The translations under genes and the position numbers were made by a program. DNA of 11,398 nt, taken from assembly GCA_025353525.1 (NCBI GenBank), contig JANXOO010000451.1:1-11398 (forward strand), read 5' to 3'. Of the stretch, positions 202 to 8,979 are shown piece by piece. This DNA comes from Schlesneria sp. GTDB taxonomy: Bacteria; Planctomycetota; Planctomycetia; Planctomycetales; Planctomycetaceae. The notes under the pieces are model-generated. The model did no database searches. It was not told where the DNA came from and saw only the letters and a list, made by a program, of their open reading frames with translations. The first letter of the stretch is position 1. Every line of letters begins with the position of its first letter.

Positions 202-1131
202 ATGTGTGGCATTTCCAGTGACGTTCTGACAGCGTCTTACCAGGCCTATCTGGATCAGTTGACTGCAGCAGGAATCCTGATTCCACTGGGCGTCAAAGGA
301 CTCTACGGACACAGCGGTGTCTTTGAAGATGTGATCGAGCGGTTCGAACGGGCGGTGACGCGTCGCGGAGCCCATTTCAAGGCGGAAGTCATGCGCTTCC
401 CGGCGATTCTGAACCGTCAGCACTACCTGAAGACGAATCACATCGAAACATTCCCCGACTTGATGGGGTCGGTTCACAGCTTTACCGGCAACGAACGCGA
501 TCACGTGCAAATGCTTCAAAAGCGGGAGCGAGGCGAGGACTGGACACGGGATCTGACGCCGACAGAAGTCATGATGACGCCAGCAGCCTGCTATCCGCTC
601 TATCCCACAGCGACCGGAACGTTACCGGAAAACGGTCGAACCGTCGACCTGAGGTCGTTTGTGTTTCGACACGAACCCTCGATCGATCCGGCTCGCATGC
701 AGATTTTCAGACAACGGGAATACGTTCGGCTCGGAACGGCCGAACAGGCACTGGATCATCGAAATTACTGGTTGAAGACTGGCGAAGAGATCCTGAATTC
801 AGTCGGCCTCAAAGTCGAAGCAGTCGTCGCCAACGATCCGTTTTTCGGGCGTGGCGGACGCATGATGGCCGTCAGCCAAAAGGAACAGGTTCTGAAGTAC
901 GAACTCGTGATAGCGATCGCCAGCTCCGAAAAACCGACGGCAATCACTTCGTGCAATTGTCACCTGGACCACTTCGGGCATTCATTCGGGATCAAGACTG
1001 CAGACGGCCAGTATGCACACTCCGCCTGCGTCGGATTCGGACTGGAACGGATCGCTTTGGCCCTGTTCAAGACACACGGTTTCGATCCTGATCACTGGCC
1101 GTCCGATGTCCGGAATGTACTCGAATTGTGA
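202..1131 (+). CDS. Amino acid:[carrier protein] ligase (class II aaRS-like)
   Basis: This 309-residue protein matches the family of atypical seryl-tRNA-synthetase homologues typified by Bradyrhizobium Bll0957. These activate glycine or alanine with ATP and transfer it to the phosphopantetheine thiol of a small carrier protein instead of to tRNA. It is a bare catalytic core: there is no N-terminal coiled-coil tRNA-binding arm. Motif 2 lies around residues 154-178 (FRHEPS then FRQREYVRLGT). Motif 3 is GFGLERIALALF at 278-289. The expected zinc ligands are visible as Cys130 (TPAACYP), Glu173 (QREY) and Cys276 (SACVGFG). The start is the only ATG before residue 60; GAAGGG at 188-193 sits 8 bases upstream. 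It opens the preserved part of a four-gene co-directional run. The substrate amino acid cannot be read from sequence. The cognate carrier protein gene is not in the window. Confidence 0.92.
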   Translation: MCGISSDVLTASYQAYLDQLTAAGILIPLGVKGLYGHSGVFEDVIERFERAVTRRGAHFKAEVMRFPAILNRQHYLKTNHIETFPDLMGSVHSFTGNERDHVQMLQKRERGEDWTRDLTPTEVMMTPAACYPLYPTATGTLPENGRTVDLRSFVFRHEPSIDPARMQIFRQREYVRLGTAEQALDHRNYWLKTGEEILNSVGLKVEAVVANDPFFGRGGRMMAVSQKEQVLKYELVIAIASSEKPTAITSCNCHLDHFGHSFGIKTADGQYAHSACVGFGLERIALALFKTHGFDPDHWPSDVRNVLEL

Positions 1132-1198: not shown

Positions 1199-2185
1199 AT
1201 GATGACACGAAACGTATTCCCTCTCGACCCGAATCGCTATGACCGGCATGTCATCCATGCCGGTGATCGCCAATGGGCCGAGACGAATTGTTATGTCGAC
1301 GTCTGGATCGAACTCCTGCACGCATGGAAGTTCGATCCGATCGCTGCATTGCCGTTCACATTGTCGATCGACTTCGAAGGGGATCAGTGGACGTTTTTCA
1401 AGTTTCCGCTGTCGCACCTCGACGATCTCTATTCGCTCGACGTACAGGAATTGGCGATCTGGCATCCTTTGGAAAGCCACCTGGAAGAACAAGTCGGAAT
1501 GGGACGCCCGGTCCTTGTTGAACTGGATTCGTACTTTCTGCCCGATACGGCCGGAACGTCGTATCAGCGCGAGCACGTGAAATCGACAGTCGCTGTGATT
1601 GCGATGGATGTCTCGAAACATTCCATGGGATATTTCCACGGCCAGGGCTACTATCACCTGTCAGGTGACGACTTCGACAACATTCTGCATCGAAACGGAA
1701 AACCACATCCGTCGGTTCTGCCACCCTACGTCGAAATTGTCAAACGCCGTACCCGACCGTCTCCAACGGGTGATGCACTGACGCAGGCATCGCTGGATCG
1801 CCTGCGGGAAGTGCTCCGAAGACTTCCGGATACAAATCCCTTCGAGAAGTTTCGCCCCAAATTTGAATCGGATCTGACGTGGCTCGCCGATCGACCGATT
1901 GAAACGTTTCATCAGTACTCATTTGCAACATTGCGTCAATTCGGTGCCTGTTACGAATTGACGACAACGTACCTGAGATGGTTGCTCCAACGAGGAGTGA
2001 CTGGTCTGGACCCTGCGATCGGACTGTTCGAAAGTTTGTCGAATGGTGCGAAGACGATGCAATTCCAGTTGGCCCGCGCGCTGGCCCGAAAGCGGCCGAT
2101 GAATCTTGCGGCGGTCGATCAAATGGCAGAGTCCTGGCAAGTGGCGATGGACGATCTTAAATCGCGTTTTTTGACTTCCGATTGA
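1199..2185 (+). CDS. DUF1839 family protein, candidate BtrH-like transacylase
   Basis: The 328-residue protein fits the uncharacterised DUF1839 family. The start is placed at ATG-ATG (1199/1202), 67 bases after the ligase; the frame is open further upstream but overlaps the ligase and reads as non-coding there. Two parts can be seen. An alpha/beta part (about 25-165) carries TNCYVDVW with Cys31, then GRPVLVELDSYFLP (102-115), then REHVKSTVAVI with His126, then GYFHGQGYYHL (144-154). A helical, arginine-rich part follows (about 195-328). By eye, Asn-Cys-x-Val-Asp/Glu, Val-x-Leu-Asp-x-Tyr-x-Leu-Pro and a following His are the same ordered landmarks as in the BtrH N-terminal domain, a papain-like fold that moves an acyl group from a carrier protein to an aminoglycoside, also followed by a helical domain. 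Being next to a carrier-protein ligase fits that role. Family assignment is firm; the transacylase role is inference. No membrane segment or signal peptide is seen. Confidence 0.85.
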   Translation: MMTRNVFPLDPNRYDRHVIHAGDRQWAETNCYVDVWIELLHAWKFDPIAALPFTLSIDFEGDQWTFFKFPLSHLDDLYSLDVQELAIWHPLESHLEEQVGMGRPVLVELDSYFLPDTAGTSYQREHVKSTVAVIAMDVSKHSMGYFHGQGYYHLSGDDFDNILHRNGKPHPSVLPPYVEIVKRRTRPSPTGDALTQASLDRLREVLRRLPDTNPFEKFRPKFESDLTWLADRPIETFHQYSFATLRQFGACYELTTTYLRWLLQRGVTGLDPAIGLFESLSNGAKTMQFQLARALARKRPMNLAAVDQMAESWQVAMDDLKSRFLTSD

Positions 2186-2198
2186 AAGCGAACGAACG

Positions 2199-4736
2199 AT
2201 GAAATCGCTCGCCCTCCAATCGAGCACAAATGCCGCGACGAAGACAACGATCCTGGGAGAATGGACGTTCTGTTCGCGCGCACCGGGGGCGATCTCGAAT
2301 CCCGAACAACTTGATGACACGGACGCCGACTGGATTGTCGCTTCTGCTCCAGGAACCGTCGCGGGCGCTTTGGCCAACGCGGGGCAATGGGACATGAATC
2401 GCCCCCCGTCAATCGACGAATTCGATTGGTGGTATCGAACCCGATTCAATGTATCGGACGATCTGGCGAGCCAACTTTGCCGACTCTGTTTTGACGGACT
2501 GGCAACTTTGGCAGAGGTCTGGCTTAACGGCGAACAGTTACTGGTTGCCGAGAATATGTTCTGTGCGTACCAGATCGATGTTTCGCACCGTCTTCATTCG
2601 CAAAATACGCTGGAAATCGGCTTTCGGTCGATCACTTCCGACGTTCAGAAGAAGCGTCCGCGTCCTCGCTGGAAGACGAACCTTGTCAGTCATCAACAGT
2701 TGCGCTGGCATCGAACATCGCTGCTCGGCAGGATGCCAGGTTGGTCACCACCGGTTCCTGCCATCGGACCATGGCGCTCAGTCCGGCTTGAATCGGGCAC
2801 GGCATTATTGTCAGAACTTCAATTGCGAACGAGCCTCGATGCGACGACAGGCGTTGTGAGTTTCAAAGCAAGACTGGAGTCCGTATCAGAAATCGACAGG
2901 GCAACACTGCGCGTCGGTACGCTTGAAAGCGAACTGAGCGTCAAACGAACAGAAAACGGATTGACCCTGAGCGGCGAATTACGATGGGACGACGTACCGC
3001 TGTGGTGGCCGCACACTCACGGAGATCAACCGCTGACCGAATGTCGCGTGGAACTCGAAACGGGTTCAGAGCGCATCGGGATCGATTGCGGCCGCATCGG
3101 TTTTCGCACATTGCGAGTCGAATCGCTCGACGAATTCTCGATCGAACTGAACGGTCAGCCGATCTATTGCCGAGGAGCGTGCTGGACAGTTTCAGACGTA
3201 TTCGACCCGAACGGAAATGAGGCGACGCTTCGTCGCGATCTGACACTCGTCCGCGATTCCGGCGCGAATATGCTGCGAGTCATTGGTACGATGGTCTATG
3301 AGAGCGACACGTTCTATCGTCTGTGCGATGAACTGGGTCTGCTTGTCTGGCAGGACTTCATGTTTGCCAACATGGACTATCCGGTGGACGATGCCGCGTT
3401 TTCCAGGAACATCACGGCTGAGGCGACGCAACGGCTTTGCCGACTGTCTCCACACCCTTGCGTCGTCGTCTATTGTGGCAGCAGTGAAATCGAGCAACAG
3501 GCTGCGATGCTGGGCGTTCGCCGCGACTTATGGCGGAACGAATGGTTCGGCGACCAATTGCCTCGACTGTGCGAAGCGCTTCATCCTGGTACTGTGTATG
3601 TCCCGTCATCACCGTCCGGGGGTGTGCTGCCGTTCCACCCGTCGTCGGGCATCAGCCACTATTACGGTATCGGAGCTTACCGGCGATCCCTGCTCGAATT
3701 GCGACAGGCGGATGTCCGGTTCACGTCAGAGTGCCTCGGGTTTGCAAATCTTCCCGAACCGGAAATGGTCAATACGATTACCGGAGGAATGACTCCCGTA
3801 GTCCATCACCCGGTCTGGAAACAGCGAGTACCTCGTGATACGGGTGCGGGCTGGGACTTCGAAGACGTGCGCGACTTTTACTTTCAGTCCCTGTATGGAC
3901 TCGACCCGGTCACGGTTCGATCAAGCGACACGCACCGCTATCTCGATCTAAGCCGCATTGTTCCCGGCGAAATGATGGCAAAGACGTTTTCGGAATGGCG
4001 CAGCAGCCATAGCCGCAATCGAGGTGGTCTGGTCTGGTTTTTCAAAGATCTTTGGCCAGCGGCCGGATGGGGAATTGTCGACAGTTCGGGTATTCCAAAA
4101 GCGGCGTATTATTCGCTTAAACGCACATGGCAGGATCGCCAGCTGACTATGACCGACGAAGGATTGAACGGACTGCACCTGCACATCATTAATGAGCGAT
4201 CTGACGAACTTGCGGGATTTGTCGAGGTCACACTACTGAAGGAACCGAACGTCGTCGTGGCTCGAAAAGAAGTTCAAATTAATGTGTCGGGGCGAGGGCA
4301 ACAACTTCTGAATGCCGATGAAATACTCGGTGGATTTTATGATACGAGCTACGCCTATCGATTCGGTCCTCCCCAGCACGATGTCGTTTCCGCAACACTC
4401 TTCGATATCAATCGCGAAGTCGTCAGCGAAGCATTTCACTTGATACGTCGACCAGTATCGATGATTGGGGCAGCGAAGGTCGAGATATTTGCTGAATGGA
4501 CTGATGAAACAGAATGCCGAGTGACCATTCGTTCCGAAAGGTTTCTGTATGGTGTCCGATTGAGTGCGAGCGGATTTCAGCCGGATGACAACTACTTCCA
4601 TCTCCTTCCCGACCGGACAAAAACCGTACGCTGCAAGCGGCTTTCGAATTCGGCTCTGTTTCGAGGTGAACTGGAAGCTCTGAATCTCGATTCCTCGATT
4701 TCCATCCCGACGCCGGGGAAAAGGAGCGGACCGTGA
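2199..4736 (+). CDS. Glycoside hydrolase family 2, beta-mannosidase type
   Basis: The 845-residue protein has the full GH2 order: a sugar-binding jelly-roll domain (about 15-200, with APGTVAGAL, WWYRTRF and an FDGLATLAEVWLNG core), an immunoglobulin-like domain (about 200-310, ending GFRTLRVE), a TIM barrel (about 311-645) and a C-terminal beta domain. The barrel shows ELNGQPIYCRGACW, NMLRVIG, CDELGLLVWQDF, the acid/base Glu430 in YCGSSE (family form WCGNNE) and the nucleophile Glu511 in FTSECLGF (family form SE-x-GF). GGLVWFFKDLWPAAGW (609-624) and KAAYYSLKR resemble beta-mannosidases and exo-beta-glucosaminidases more than LacZ. There is no signal peptide, so it should act in the cytoplasm. 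It starts 13 bases after the DUF1839 stop with no clear Shine-Dalgarno, suggesting coupled translation. Its true sugar specificity cannot be read; position in the cluster suggests an aminoacylated or amino-sugar glycoside rather than bulk mannan. Confidence 0.92.
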   Translation: MKSLALQSSTNAATKTTILGEWTFCSRAPGAISNPEQLDDTDADWIVASAPGTVAGALANAGQWDMNRPPSIDEFDWWYRTRFNVSDDLASQLCRLCFDGLATLAEVWLNGEQLLVAENMFCAYQIDVSHRLHSQNTLEIGFRSITSDVQKKRPRPRWKTNLVSHQQLRWHRTSLLGRMPGWSPPVPAIGPWRSVRLESGTALLSELQLRTSLDATTGVVSFKARLESVSEIDRATLRVGTLESELSVKRTENGLTLSGELRWDDVPLWWPHTHGDQPLTECRVELETGSERIGIDCGRIGFRTLRVESLDEFSIELNGQPIYCRGACWTVSDVFDPNGNEATLRRDLTLVRDSGANMLRVIGTMVYESDTFYRLCDELGLLVWQDFMFANMDYPVDDAAFSRNITAEATQRLCRLSPHPCVVVYCGSSEIEQQAAMLGVRRDLWRNEWFGDQLPRLCEALHPGTVYVPSSPSGGVLPFHPSSGISHYYGIGAYRRSLLELRQADVRFTSECLGFANLPEPEMVNTITGGMTPVVHHPVWKQRVPRDTGAGWDFEDVRDFYFQSLYGLDPVTVRSSDTHRYLDLSRIVPGEMMAKTFSEWRSSHSRNRGGLVWFFKDLWPAAGWGIVDSSGIPKAAYYSLKRTWQDRQLTMTDEGLNGLHLHIINERSDELAGFVEVTLLKEPNVVVARKEVQINVSGRGQQLLNADEILGGFYDTSYAYRFGPPQHDVVSATLFDINREVVSEAFHLIRRPVSMIGAAKVEIFAEWTDETECRVTIRSERFLYGVRLSASGFQPDDNYFHLLPDRTKTVRCKRLSNSALFRGELEALNLDSSISIPTPGKRSGP
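4721..4726 (+). promoter_or_regulatory. Ribosome binding site deciding the GTG start at 4733
   Basis: AAGGAG lies 6 bases before GTG at 4733 and 12 before ATG at 4739. The spacing favours GTG, which overlaps the preceding stop as GTGA (4733-4736). This is the clearest Shine-Dalgarno within the left-hand cluster. Confidence 0.7.
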
Positions 4737-6631
4737 TCATGTTGGCGACCGCCATCGAAGTCGCAAGCGAACACAAAGGCAAACCGGATGACGGGTTGTC
4801 TTTTGATGCGATTCGTCGCACAGCCTGTTATGTGCCGACGGGATCGGGATCACTGTTTGCCTGGCTTCACGAGCGTTCAGACAATCCAAATGTCGAACAT
4901 GGTGTCATTATTTGTCCGCCAATCGGTCACGAACAATTGCACTCGCATCGAGCCCTGCGTCATCTGGCCGATCACCTGGCGATGGAATCGGTGCCTGTAT
5001 TGCGATTCGACTGGAGCGGAACGGGGGATTCCCCTGGAAACGACGAAGATCCGGACCGCTATTCAACATGGTTGTCCGATATTACAAACGCGGTTCAGTG
5101 GATGCGACACACATGCGGCTGCCACCGCGTGACACTGATAGGTCTGAGGATGGGTGCGACACTGGCCGCGCTGGCGACAACCGATTGCGAAGTCGACAAC
5201 CTCGTCCTATGGGCACCGGTCCAGAAGGGACGGACTTACGTTCGCGAAATGAAGGCAATCGGGCTGACATCGGCCGTCTCGGTGGTGGCAACGTCAGATC
5301 GAAATCAGGATATCGAAGCAGCGGGATTTACGCTCGGTTCCCGGACAATCGCCGACCTCGGTCAAATCGAACTCCAGTCTTTTCGACCACAATGTCGCAG
5401 AATACTCGTTGTTGTCCGCGAAGATCTTCCTGACGGACATCAACTCTGTGATGAATGGGCAACGGCCGGGATTGACGTCGAACAGATTGCTTGTCCGGGC
5501 TATTTCGAAATGATGACCGAACCACATCGCACGGAAGTTCCGCAACAGGCCATATGTGATATTTCCAACTGGATTTCACACGTCATCAAGTCGCAGCAGG
5601 GACTTGACGAGGCCAAGGATTCCGTTCGACCTCGTTTGACGCGGATGTCCGAAACGACATGCAAATCACTCGACACTCAACCGGAATGCGATATTCGCGA
5701 ATCGATTTTTGAAGTCGATTGTCAGCCGGGATTGTTCGGCATCATCACTGAGCTGGCAACTTCTGTCGAGAACGAACTTCCAATCGTCGTACTGTTGAAT
5801 GCAGGATCGGCAAATCGGACCGGACCTGGTCGATTGAACGTTTTCATGGCACGACATTTCGCGTCGATCGGATTCCGCTGTTTGCGACTCGATCTGGGAG
5901 GAATCGGCGACAGTCCTTGTGAGTCCGCAGGTCGCGAAAACGACCCCTATCCGGCGACGGCGTTCAGGGATATTGATCGGACAATCGAAGAACTGGTACG
6001 TCGGTATCCAACAAAGAGAATCGTGTTGATGGGGCTTTGCTCGGGCGCGTATGCGGCATTTCAGGCGGCGGCACAACTTCCGAATCGGGCGCTGATTGAG
6101 TCGGTGCTGATCAATCCCCTGACGTTCTTCTGGATGGATGGTATGACGCTGGAGACTGCTCCGTCGAAGCAATTAACAACGTTTCACTACCATATCGGCG
6201 CGGCGATTCAGCCGAGAAAGTGGCTGAAGCTGGTTTCCGGGCGGAGCAAAATCGGCATCGTCGGGGCCATTCAATTGCTCGCGTGTCGACTGAAGTTGCT
6301 GAATTTGTCGCCCCGCGAAAGTCGAAAGCCGGTAATGGAAGACCAGTCGTCATCGAGCATTTTTCATCCACCGGTGGAAGACCTGTCGGCAGACTTGCGG
6401 CGAATCGCTGATACAGGTCGACATCTTGCAATGTTTTTCTCAAGTTCGGACCCGGGGTTCGGCATTCTGAATTTTCATGCACGACGCGAGGCAACGCGGC
6501 AGCGATCATCCGGTCGGCTGAATGTCGGGTTTATCGACAAAACAGACCATACATTTTCAACACGGGCGGCTCGATCCGATCTGATCCAGGCGGTTTCAGC
6601 CTATCTGGTTCGTCGGTATTCGGCCAAGTGA
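4733..6631 (+). CDS. Tandem alpha/beta-hydrolase fusion with atypical nucleophile elbows
   Basis: This 632-residue protein contains two alpha/beta-hydrolase modules, about 40-285 and 326-630, joined by a polar linker. Internal homology is plain: RFDWSGTGDSP (91-101) against RLDLGGIGDSP (385-395), and GLRMGA (137-142) against GLCSGA (434-439). In the first module the nucleophile-elbow serine is replaced by Arg139, the form I associate with the hydrolases of exosortase systems, so this half is probably non-hydrolytic or uses another mechanism. In the second module the position is Cys436, with Asp573 and His606 (KTDHTF) as plausible triad partners, giving a possible Cys-His-Asp enzyme acting on a thioester or ester. 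No signal peptide or membrane span is seen. GTG at 4733 is preferred because of the binding site at 4721-4726 and the 4-base overlap with the GH2 gene, pointing to translational coupling. A thioesterase or acyltransferase role on carrier-bound substrates is an inference. Fold assignment is strong, function open. Confidence 0.87.
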   Translation: MIMLATAIEVASEHKGKPDDGLSFDAIRRTACYVPTGSGSLFAWLHERSDNPNVEHGVIICPPIGHEQLHSHRALRHLADHLAMESVPVLRFDWSGTGDSPGNDEDPDRYSTWLSDITNAVQWMRHTCGCHRVTLIGLRMGATLAALATTDCEVDNLVLWAPVQKGRTYVREMKAIGLTSAVSVVATSDRNQDIEAAGFTLGSRTIADLGQIELQSFRPQCRRILVVVREDLPDGHQLCDEWATAGIDVEQIACPGYFEMMTEPHRTEVPQQAICDISNWISHVIKSQQGLDEAKDSVRPRLTRMSETTCKSLDTQPECDIRESIFEVDCQPGLFGIITELATSVENELPIVVLLNAGSANRTGPGRLNVFMARHFASIGFRCLRLDLGGIGDSPCESAGRENDPYPATAFRDIDRTIEELVRRYPTKRIVLMGLCSGAYAAFQAAAQLPNRALIESVLINPLTFFWMDGMTLETAPSKQLTTFHYHIGAAIQPRKWLKLVSGRSKIGIVGAIQLLACRLKLLNLSPRESRKPVMEDQSSSSIFHPPVEDLSADLRRIADTGRHLAMFFSSSDPGFGILNFHARREATRQRSSGRLNVGFIDKTDHTFSTRAARSDLIQAVSAYLVRRYSAK

Positions 6632-6761: not shown

Positions 6762-7553
6762 TTACATCTGCGAGGGAATGCCTGTTTTTCCTTCGAGGAT
6801 CTGAATTAAAAGATTGTCGTGCGGCCAGGGATGACCACGATGCTGCGTGAATGCTTCGCCATATTCCACTCCGATCTCACGTCCGCGTTCCGACGACCAG
6901 CGACGACATCCGTCGAGGTATTCATCAAGGCCATGCTGGCGACGCAACCACGCTCGCTGGCTTTCGTGGCAGGCGAGCATTTCGAGTTTCGTTTCAAACG
7001 TTGCGGTCACATCAATAATAAAATCTGTCGGTAGGGGTCGCCCGAAATAGTCGATTCCCTGAATGGCATCAACATAGTACAGATGCGGGACCCGGGTCGT
7101 CGGCGGAGCGGGATCCCATTGTCCCGTTTTGTAGTTCGGGCAGCTTGCGTTGAAACAGGCGTCTCGTACAAGGCGACTGGTCATTTCGTGGTCGCTCATA
7201 TAATCAACCGGAGGCGCTGTCACAACGATATTCGGGCGGGCTCGGCGGATGACTTCGGTCACCCTTCGGCGGCTCTCGTTATCGACGATGATCGACAGAT
7301 CCCGAAATTCAAGGCAGGTGTAATCTGCACCGAGAATGTCGGCCGCGCGTTGGGCTTCGATGCGGCGTACCGAGGAAATTTCTTCGGGTGACAGTTCGGC
7401 ACTACCACAATCGCCCGGCGTCATCGTCGCCACTGAAACCGCGCAACCGAGTTGTTTGAGCCTTAAAAGCGTCCCCGCGCATTGCAATTCGATGTCATCC
7501 GGATGCGCGTGGATCGCGAGAACTCGTACGTTGCCGTCAATTGTGTCGGTCAT
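6762..7553 (-). CDS. PIG-L / LmbE family zinc deacetylase
   Basis: The 263-residue protein has the PIG-L signature AIHAHPDDIELQCAGTL near the N-terminus, with His17 and Asp20 as zinc ligands, and SDHEMTSRLV supplying His122 as the third. RRIEAQRAADILGAD (63-77) and a C-terminal RGREIGVEYGEAF are also typical. Family members remove acetyl groups from N-acetylglucosaminyl lipids or thiol precursors. The HPDDIE form is nearer to the BshB1/LmbE branch than to eukaryotic HPDDE enzymes, but the substrate cannot be read. The start is taken at the ATG ending at 7553 because the core begins a few residues later; the frame stays open to 7745 but that stretch overlaps the upstream gene and contains a tandem repeat. 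A GAGGAG motif (7567-7572) lies 13 bases upstream, rather far. The gene converges with the left-hand operon, so it is a separate transcription unit. Confidence 0.93.
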   Translation of the reverse strand: MTDTIDGNVRVLAIHAHPDDIELQCAGTLLRLKQLGCAVSVATMTPGDCGSAELSPEEISSVRRIEAQRAADILGADYTCLEFRDLSIIVDNESRRRVTEVIRRARPNIVVTAPPVDYMSDHEMTSRLVRDACFNASCPNYKTGQWDPAPPTTRVPHLYYVDAIQGIDYFGRPLPTDFIIDVTATFETKLEMLACHESQRAWLRRQHGLDEYLDGCRRWSSERGREIGVEYGEAFTQHRGHPWPHDNLLIQILEGKTGIPSQM

Positions 7554-7618
7554 TCTCAGTGAGTCACTCCTCAAAATCCTGTTATTGGCAAACTCGCCCG
7601 AATTGAAACCGTGCCAAA

Positions 7619-7650
7619 CACGTTGGAAAACACGTTGGAAAACTCGTTGG
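7619..7650. repeat. 12-bp tandem repeat, about 2.7 copies
   Basis: The unit CACGTTGGAAAA occurs at 7619-7630 and 7631-7642 without mismatch, followed by a partial copy with one change at 7643-7650. It lies in the 103-base gap between the membrane-protein stop (7657) and the PIG-L start (7553), so in the PIG-L leader if the two are cotranscribed. The unit length is a multiple of three. A role is not evident; replication slippage is the simplest origin. Confidence 0.9.
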
Positions 7651-7656
7651 GCCGGA

Positions 7657-8979
7657 TCAGCGGTAGATTTGAGGTCGCGGGAGTCCGGCGAGCGATTCCT
7701 GGCGGTGACCGGCGCCACCGTTGGAAATCGAAAGCCTGGCTTCATTTTCGCGGGCTTCCGTAGGCAAGTTGGCCAATCGGGGCCTGAACGTAACGAGCAG
7801 CATCAACGGCAAATACCACAGAACATAAATGCCCCCTTGGTCGGGATACCAGAACTGGGTGGCCACGATGATTGCGGCCGAATTGGCAAGCAATGTTTCG
7901 ATGTTTTTTTTCAGTGGCCAGATTGTTAACGACGCAAGGACCACGACAAATGTTGCAAAGACCGGAATTCGATAAGCAGGGTTATAGAGACTCCAGAATC
8001 CGACTCCGCCATCGGCCTGGAATTTGAGGACGCTCCAATCGATCGAACCGAGTGTCTGCCGGGTGAAACTGTGCGAATCGGCTGACGTGAGAACGAGGCT
8101 GCCAAGCAGGACTGCACCGACAAGAACCAGGGCCAGCCCGAATTTCATCGCACCGCGCTTCCAGTAGAATGCCATCCAGATCGGTAACAAAAAGACAGGG
8201 AAGAACAGCGTCCCGCAGGCGAGTCCCAACAGGCCACCGGCAACCGTGGGACGGTGATGCATGGCAACCGCCCAAACAATCAGCGCGGCAGGTAGCAAAT
8301 GGTTGACCTTTGTGACGTCGTAGGCAGTGGCAGGTAACAGCAGGTAGAGCGTACCCATCGCCAGGCCCAGATTGGTGTCGCTGAAATGCCAACGGCCGAC
8401 GGCGATCAGGCCGAACAATACGGCAAGATGCGAAAGGAATGCCATGGCACGAGCGGCGGCAATCTGCGCACCGCCGGTCAAAGGAACGACGGTTGTCGCC
8501 AGCAATCGTCCCGCAGGCCCCGTAACTGCCCCGGCGTCAACATCTTCCGTTGTCGCCGACGCGTCCTCGCGTTTGAGCAATCCATCAGCCTTGCGAACGG
8601 TCTGCATCGCCCCCGCGTCAGGATCTTCCGTCGCGATCTTGGTTGTCTGGAACAACATCGCCGCAGCACACAAGAAGGCCATCCCCGCCGGATTCAGGTT
8701 CTGTTCCATCCGGGGGCGTCGAGTTACCGTCCAGTCGAACAGCAATCGAAACAATAAAAAGCCGCTGATCGCGAACAACCAACAGTAGCCCAAGGTCGAT
8801 CCAGATGCCGTCGATTTAACAAAAAGCAATCCGGGAGTCAGCGACAACAACAGCGACAAATCGAGGTTGCGAACCGACCACAGACGGCCGAATTTGAAGA
8901 AAACCGCCATCACCAGAATTGTAGAAAGCACGAACCACGTCGGTGGATTGACGTGATAGCCGCTCAGGATTTCTTCCAT
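7657..8979 (-). CDS. Multi-pass integral membrane protein of unknown function
   Basis: The 440-residue protein has roughly 10-12 predicted membrane spans (for example 14-28, 40-55, 64-82, 98-110, 175-195, 203-241, 245-272, 278-298, 335-355 and 383-397). A hydrophilic loop at about 113-160 contains an imperfect duplication (ATEDPDAGAM at 116-125 and TTEDVDAGAV at 143-152). The C-terminus (about 400-440) is polar and likely cytoplasmic. I do not recognise a characterised family. The run of hydrophobic helices with interspersed short charged loops is reminiscent of polyprenyl-sugar-dependent (GT-C) glycosyltransferases, but I see no diagnostic acidic motif in the first loop, so this remains only a possibility. 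The start is supported by GAGGTG (8985-8990) 5 bases upstream. It is followed 103 bases later by the PIG-L gene on the same strand, and the two may be cotranscribed. Confidence 0.82.
   Translation of the reverse strand: MEEILSGYHVNPPTWFVLSTILVMAVFFKFGRLWSVRNLDLSLLLSLTPGLLFVKSTASGSTLGYCWLFAISGFLLFRLLFDWTVTRRPRMEQNLNPAGMAFLCAAAMLFQTTKIATEDPDAGAMQTVRKADGLLKREDASATTEDVDAGAVTGPAGRLLATTVVPLTGGAQIAAARAMAFLSHLAVLFGLIAVGRWHFSDTNLGLAMGTLYLLLPATAYDVTKVNHLLPAALIVWAVAMHHRPTVAGGLLGLACGTLFFPVFLLPIWMAFYWKRGAMKFGLALVLVGAVLLGSLVLTSADSHSFTRQTLGSIDWSVLKFQADGGVGFWSLYNPAYRIPVFATFVVVLASLTIWPLKKNIETLLANSAAIIVATQFWYPDQGGIYVLWYLPLMLLVTFRPRLANLPTEARENEARLSISNGGAGHRQESLAGLPRPQIYR

Follow-up and report, generated by a model that had tools for sequence, protein, structure and literature searches.

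Predicted fold and recurrent gene cassettes suggest that DUF1839 proteins are carrier-protein-dependent amide synthases

We propose, with a probability of about 0.72, that proteins of the DUF1839 family are carrier-protein-dependent amide synthases. The member studied here is encoded in a stretch of 11,398 nucleotides from Schlesneria sp. (contig JANXOO010000451.1; hereafter the window), and the proposal draws directly on the predicted fold class, residue conservation, gene order within a recurrent cassette and the complementary presence of two loading enzymes. In its predicted overall shape DUF1839 matches enzymes that transfer carrier-bound amino acids to amine groups in lincosamides and other antibiotics, so that a role open to experiment can be proposed for the family; the match to one of them, CcbD, offers a concrete reaction for these proteins, whose relatives numbered 4145 in a single protein search (120 of them listed).

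1199 to 2185, forward strand: DUF1839 protein (PF08893), 328 amino acids; N-terminal half papain-like and C-terminal half helical in the AlphaFold2 model.

The initial annotation read this gene product as a BtrH-type carrier-protein transacylase and proposed a Foldseek search of its predicted structure. That search, with the full-length AlphaFold2 model, matched CcbD, AziU3 and CtaG over both domains, AziU3 being the top Foldseek match and CcbD scoring higher in Z. As modelled, DUF1839 shares its fold over both domains with these carrier-protein enzymes, and its N-terminal half has a papain-like fold in which the cysteine that opens the central helix (Cys31, first residue of helix 31–42) precedes a beta sheet. 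A BtrH-family model of low confidence (predicted local distance difference test score below 50 in the active-site region) matches the same three enzymes. AziU3 belongs to an aziridine pathway, and its place as best Foldseek match lends some credit to the idea that DUF1839 leaves its substrate group on the carrier protein and changes it in place, perhaps by closing a ring as proposed for AziU3; the higher Z score of CcbD leads us to give this little credence.

Profile comparison places DUF1839 further from BtrH than the initial annotation implied. The N-terminal DUF1839 profile aligns with that of BtrH (15 proteins) at an hhalign P of 1.2e-4 (probability 55%, 123 columns), with the Cys and LP motifs in register; six decoy profiles gave P 0.055–0.44, and reversing one profile gave 0.36 and 0.46. 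Reversing both returned 8.6e-4, which mirrors the same comparison and is no control. BtrH and Peptidase_C39_2 profiles align with each other at P 1.8e-10. For their C-terminal halves, DUF1839 and BtrH give no sequence alignment (hhalign P 0.49). Because neither of the Pfam models BtrH_N and DUF4872 matches DUF1839 at E ≤ 1 (three scanned BtrH-family proteins match both), DUF1839 is, judged by sequence, a remote relative of BtrH and not a member of its family. The core of the BtrH-type reading stands, with the fold match to carrier-protein enzymes, a tentative N-terminal profile link and the gene neighbourhood behind it; family membership does not.

The protein itself matches PF08893 with 407.8 bits (cut-off 22.5); scans against Pfam and NCBIfam returned no curated family except DUF1839, and sequence searches of the PDB no credible match. 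The landmarks first described are all in place: Cys31 in NCYVD, VELDSYFLP at 107–115, His126 in REHVKSTVAVI, and GYFHGQGYYHL, which contains His147. The gene had been ended at 1780, near residue 194 of 328, which loses the helical C-terminal half; the open reading frame (ORF) runs to 2185. Its true start may be 1202 instead of 1199, since most of 39 aligned homologues start at the second Met.

Conservation was assessed over 211 distinct DUF1839 sequences (profile E 1e-20), taken from the 120 listed proteins and from 94 loci that had been fetched. A pattern search through species genomes had confirmed 271 relatives, and we retained the best 80 loci. The residues concerned are the following.

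1289 to 1291, forward strand: codon of Cys31, the proposed nucleophile (sequence, conservation, model secondary structure).
1526 to 1528, forward strand: codon of Asp110, in VELDSYFLP, closing strand 105–110 (conservation, AlphaFold2 model).
1574 to 1576, forward strand: codon of His126, in the loop preceding strand 128–137; the catalytic His of the initial annotation (conservation, model).
1583 to 1585, forward strand: codon of Ser129 (Ser/Thr in the family), aligned to the canonical catalytic His of BtrH-like proteins (by-eye alignment, conservation, PMC10318531).
1637 to 1639, forward strand: codon of His147, closing strand 142–147, aligned to the BtrH-like Asp; proposed base (by-eye alignment, conservation, model, PMC10318531).

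Cys31 is kept in 209 of the 210 members with a residue at that position (the sole exception is Arg), Lys128 in 210/211, and position 129 is Ser or Thr in 210/211; Asp110, His126 and His147 are invariant (211/211 each). The expected conservation of Cys31 and His126 is thus borne out, but with both histidines invariant, conservation alone cannot decide between them. In a by-eye alignment, the His-to-Asp distance of a BtrH-like protein is 18 residues, exactly that from Ser129 to His147, and the His-to-acid spacing is 16–18 in the few BtrH-like sequences and AziU3 so compared; His126 and His147 lie 21 residues apart. PMC10318531 gives the DUF1839 triad as C(T/S)H, the His being swapped with Thr/Ser. 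On the strength of this spacing and triad we favour Cys31, Ser/Thr129 and His147 as the probable active site, with His126 as the alternative; the earlier choice of His126 as base was probably wrong, the canonical His aligning with Ser/Thr129 and the acid with His147. That DUF1839 is an ordinary papain-like peptidase would suit its papain-like N-terminal half (structure match; PMC10318531), yet the canonical His is absent by alignment and the full-length match is to carrier-protein enzymes instead, so we regard this as highly improbable.

The DUF1839 gene does not stand alone. The window starts at base 1 of its contig, so that of the carrier protein and its loading enzyme only the latter, an amino acid–carrier protein ligase (aaCPL), is visible.

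202 to 1131, forward strand: amino acid--[acyl-carrier-protein] ligase (aaCPL, class II, SerRS-like), presumed to charge a carrier protein; NF005479 450.4 bits (cut-off 357); Bll0957 (PDB 3mey) E 2e-74.
2199 to 4736, forward strand: glycoside hydrolase family 2 (GH2) protein, a conserved cassette member (Pfam scan, locus comparison).
4733 to 6631, forward strand: two-domain alpha/beta hydrolase resembling exosortase-A-system hydrolases 1 and 2, below cut-offs; a conserved cassette member.

We counted neighbours by profile search in 81 DUF1839 loci (82 minus the window's own), 57 of which have enough flank. Among these 57, an acyl-CoA-dehydrogenase-like flavoenzyme (ACAD) and GH2 are present in all, an acyl carrier protein (ACP) in 56 and aaCPL in 49; a hydrolase match lies somewhere in 57 of the 59 loci with at least 5 kb downstream, usually after GH2 but upstream of the carrier protein in 11. 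The common order (ACP, ACAD, aaCPL, DUF1839, GH2, hydrolase) recurs in records titled Planctomycetota, Verrucomicrobia, Proteobacteria, Acidobacteria, Chloroflexi and Gemmatimonadota, and the cassette is also plasmid-borne in Azospirillum, Rhizobium and Mycetohabitans (4 of 59 plasmid records were viewed). The two genes co-occur at genome level as well: in 300 genomes of one order, DUF1839 is found in 7 and aaCPL above cut-off in 8 (plus 3 weaker), both together in 7; in 199 genomes of the window's phylum the figures are 2, 2 (plus 2 weaker) and 2. Three scanned cassette carrier proteins exceed the NF005480 cut-off, and another is closest to 4h2w (crystallised with an aaCPL) and 2jq4 (Atu2571). 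The DUF1839 gene therefore travels with a carrier protein and, in most loci, a loading enzyme. Two glycosyltransferase genes adjoin one cassette; two others have no polysaccharide genes annotated close by (in one of these the hydrolase is on the opposite strand), and the cassette therefore need not belong to a polysaccharide locus.

Several features of these neighbours deserve record. The GH2 protein carries the stretches CGSSEIEQ and FTSECLG, which are reminiscent of both catalytic Glu sites in beta-mannosidases of family GH2; among 69 cassette copies, loose patterns for the two stretches occur in 46 and 31. In domain 2 of the hydrolase, a GLCSGA-like (GxCxG) box is found in 50 of 65 cassette copies by regular expression, its Cys presumably a nucleophile as in polyhydroxyalkanoate synthases; domain 1 has Arg at the same place (GLRMGA, GLRLGA) in the window and the copies shown. 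One genome pairs two DUF1839 genes with just one aaCPL, and one of these DUF1839 genes starts 127 bases from the first base of a contig. Further along the window, on the reverse strand, 6762 to 7745 encodes a PIG-L deacetylase closest to BshB1 but below cut-off (136.8 of 182.5 bits), overlapped by a long ORF (7657 to 8979, reverse strand) with no family above cut-off.

The initial annotation cast DUF1839 as the acceptor-loading enzyme for amino acids charged by the neighbouring ligase. The prevalence of aaCPL in the flanked loci supports this, but a dependence on aaCPL as such is rejected, since 15 of 82 DUF1839 loci lack it. One of the 15 starts within DUF1839 and two with the dehydrogenase directly upstream were left aside; 12 were followed. 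Whole-genome searches of six found no aaCPL in any, against 3/3 controls; for the other six the locus only was examined. Stand-alone adenylation enzymes above the TIGR01733 cut-off occur in three loci, in one adjoining the carrier protein (L073) and in another after the hydrolase. The L073 enzyme or a close relative is present in 10 of the 12 genomes whose cassettes lack aaCPL, the query's own included (56–61% identity, 591–687 bits), and in none of 9 aaCPL-bearing genomes, our choice from 67 loci, where no match exceeds 247 bits (35% identity; Fisher P 2.2e-4, kinship not corrected for). For five of the ten, a cassette-type gene is found within 1.5 kb. An AMP-binding protein near one further cassette fell below the amino-acid-adenylation cut-off (217.1 of 317.4) and was rejected; that genome's close relative lies elsewhere.

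Across the genomes compared, then, the two kinds of loading enzyme show complementary presence, and one would appear to replace the other. On the simplest reading, an unrelated enzyme takes over the charging and the carrier protein continues to receive an amino acid, DUF1839 being linked to the charged carrier protein; that loading enzymes come in two kinds indicates which partner matters.

Related gene sets extend the picture. A Priestia aryabhattai plasmid (p-LAD4, 890–14713) carries an ACP–ACAD–aaCPL set without DUF1839, beside a holo-ACP synthase, DMT transporter, ATP-grasp protein, alpha/beta hydrolase, alanine permease, alanine racemase and D-Ala-D-Ala ligase; the arrangement resembles a gene cluster that makes an alanine-type product and protects its host from it, and points tentatively to alanine as the amino acid charged by this aaCPL. 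On a Tsukamurella plasmid (4752–13339), aaCPL and a carrier protein, without DUF1839 or dehydrogenase, sit within a polysaccharide locus that also encodes a phosphopantetheinyl transferase and glycosyltransferases. In three aaCPL-less loci (L059, 13052–16062; L048, 13199–15069; L032, 13481–16496) the cassette is followed by a further carrier-protein-like ORF and by an enzyme of FkbH type, accompanied in L059 by an acyltransferase 3 family protein; these extra genes suggest a second, perhaps glyceryl, acyl group, and the second carrier protein of L059, the sole one scanned, is below family cut-offs.

We envisage the following reaction. The ligase, or in some genomes the adenylation enzyme, would attach an amino acid to the small carrier protein through a thioester bond, and ACAD may modify it there. 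DUF1839 would bind the loaded carrier protein, accept the aminoacyl group on Cys31 and pass it to an acceptor amine, most likely that of an amino sugar or amino-sugar glycan, to give an amide rather than an ester or acid; Ser/Thr129 and His147 would complete the active site, and GH2 and the alpha/beta hydrolase would then process the product. The amino sugar is suggested by analogy with CcbD chemistry and by the GH2 neighbour.

The same Cys–His chemistry with water as acceptor would make DUF1839 a thioesterase, freeing the (modified) amino acid or clearing mischarged carrier protein while another enzyme performs transfer. The Priestia set, with its alpha/beta hydrolase and ATP-grasp protein in place of DUF1839, indicates that release and ligation can be arranged otherwise; nevertheless by far the closest folds are two-domain enzymes of carrier-protein pathways, and in CcbD both the sugar site and the carrier-protein site draw residues from the C-terminal half (PMC12945683), making a thioesterase unlikely. 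Transfer to a hydroxyl, for example on a polysaccharide, to form an ester would fit the cassette adjoined by glycosyltransferase genes, the Tsukamurella polysaccharide locus and the glycan processing guessed in PMC10318531. We consider it decidedly unlikely, for CcbD makes an amide (PMC12945683). BtrH and CtaG are reported to form amides too. Returning to the amide synthase, a tentative extension, possible but less likely than not, is that DUF1839 cassettes are biosynthetic operons whose small products, aminoacyl amino sugars or aminoacyl glycans, form a new class, and in which an interchangeable SerRS-like ligase or adenylation enzyme charges, the flavoenzyme oxidises the bound amino acid and a His/Ser-swapped papain-type DUF1839 makes the amide; a purpose would then have been found for at least this branch of the aaCPLs of 2010.

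Several points weigh against an amide synthase. A common fold is no proof of common chemistry, as AziU3 in its aziridine pathway illustrates, and both the amide synthase activity and the acceptor are predicted. Sequence by itself appears to tie DUF1839 to BtrH weakly: a smaller BtrH set (7 proteins) lowered the hhalign probability to 8%, and Peptidase_C39_2 (20 sequences from 30 loci) scores nearly as well (P 1.8e-4), though across just 21 columns, which means that BtrH is not singled out by the profile link. With the canonical His missing by alignment, a working triad requires a real His/Ser-Thr swap, and the LP-to-His spacing favours His126 (12; relatives 11–14) over Ser129 (15). The hydrolase with its GxCxG box could itself be an acyl transferase. 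Two of the 12 genomes whose cassettes lack aaCPL have no close relative of the L073 enzyme (no match in one; 235 bits, 33% at best in the other).

Parts of this proposal were in print. Since their description in 2010 the aaCPLs have been known as relatives of aminoacyl-tRNA synthetases with carrier proteins as the partners they charge (PMC9437257, PMC2922099). A note added in proof to PMC2922099 (2010) predicted that an ORF beside the SerRS-like ligase, such as Atu2574, forms an amide joining the amino acid to the amino group of a cell-surface sugar derivative, and mentioned a glycosidase and a redox enzyme alongside; from gene order, we infer that Atu2574 is a DUF1839 protein. PMC10318531 (2023) described the papain-like fold and guessed at glycan processing. 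Both treat the family considered here; in the parts available, the two accounts are not joined, and neither compares CcbD, CtaG or AziU3 or names a second kind of loading enzyme. The claim of the initial annotation to give chemistry to an uncharacterised family was accordingly not the first: it rediscovered the amide prediction of 2010 and sharpened it by naming BtrH. A limited literature search found no printed account of the DUF1839 match to CcbD, AziU3 and CtaG or of the second loading enzyme, nor, in a literature itself partially covered, any report of the fate of the aaCPL-charged amino acid.

Among known systems, BtrH (PF14399 plus PF16169) resembles DUF1839 in length and layout and differs in its Pfam models and in a C-terminal half that does not align by sequence. 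CtaG of closthioamide (PDB 9quz, 9qvk, 9qvo, 9qvs) and AziU3 of azinomycin (PDB 7wuw, 8gs1; crystallised together with its partner AziU2) are 9–14% identical to DUF1839. The CtaG residues mutated according to PDB titles are C11, H128 and D144, whereas DUF1839 has His at the acid position by alignment. The lincosamide condensing enzymes CcbD and LmbD (PDB 7yn1, 7yn2, 9dkr, 9dks) share 11–14% identity with DUF1839; LmbD was itself described in 2015 as lacking any similarity (PMC4351081). CcbD binds its carrier protein through Arg312, 316 and 324 near the C terminus (PMC12945683), and DUF1839 keeps Arg293, a possible counterpart near the end of helix 271–297, in 210/210 members with a residue there. 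Unlike CcbD, with its Cys-His-Glu triad, DUF1839 has Ser/Thr at the canonical His position by alignment, and unlike CcbD and LmbD its cassettes usually employ a SerRS-like ligase for loading. If the proposal is right, DUF1839 would add to the carrier-protein-dependent amide synthases a branch whose active site is rearranged.
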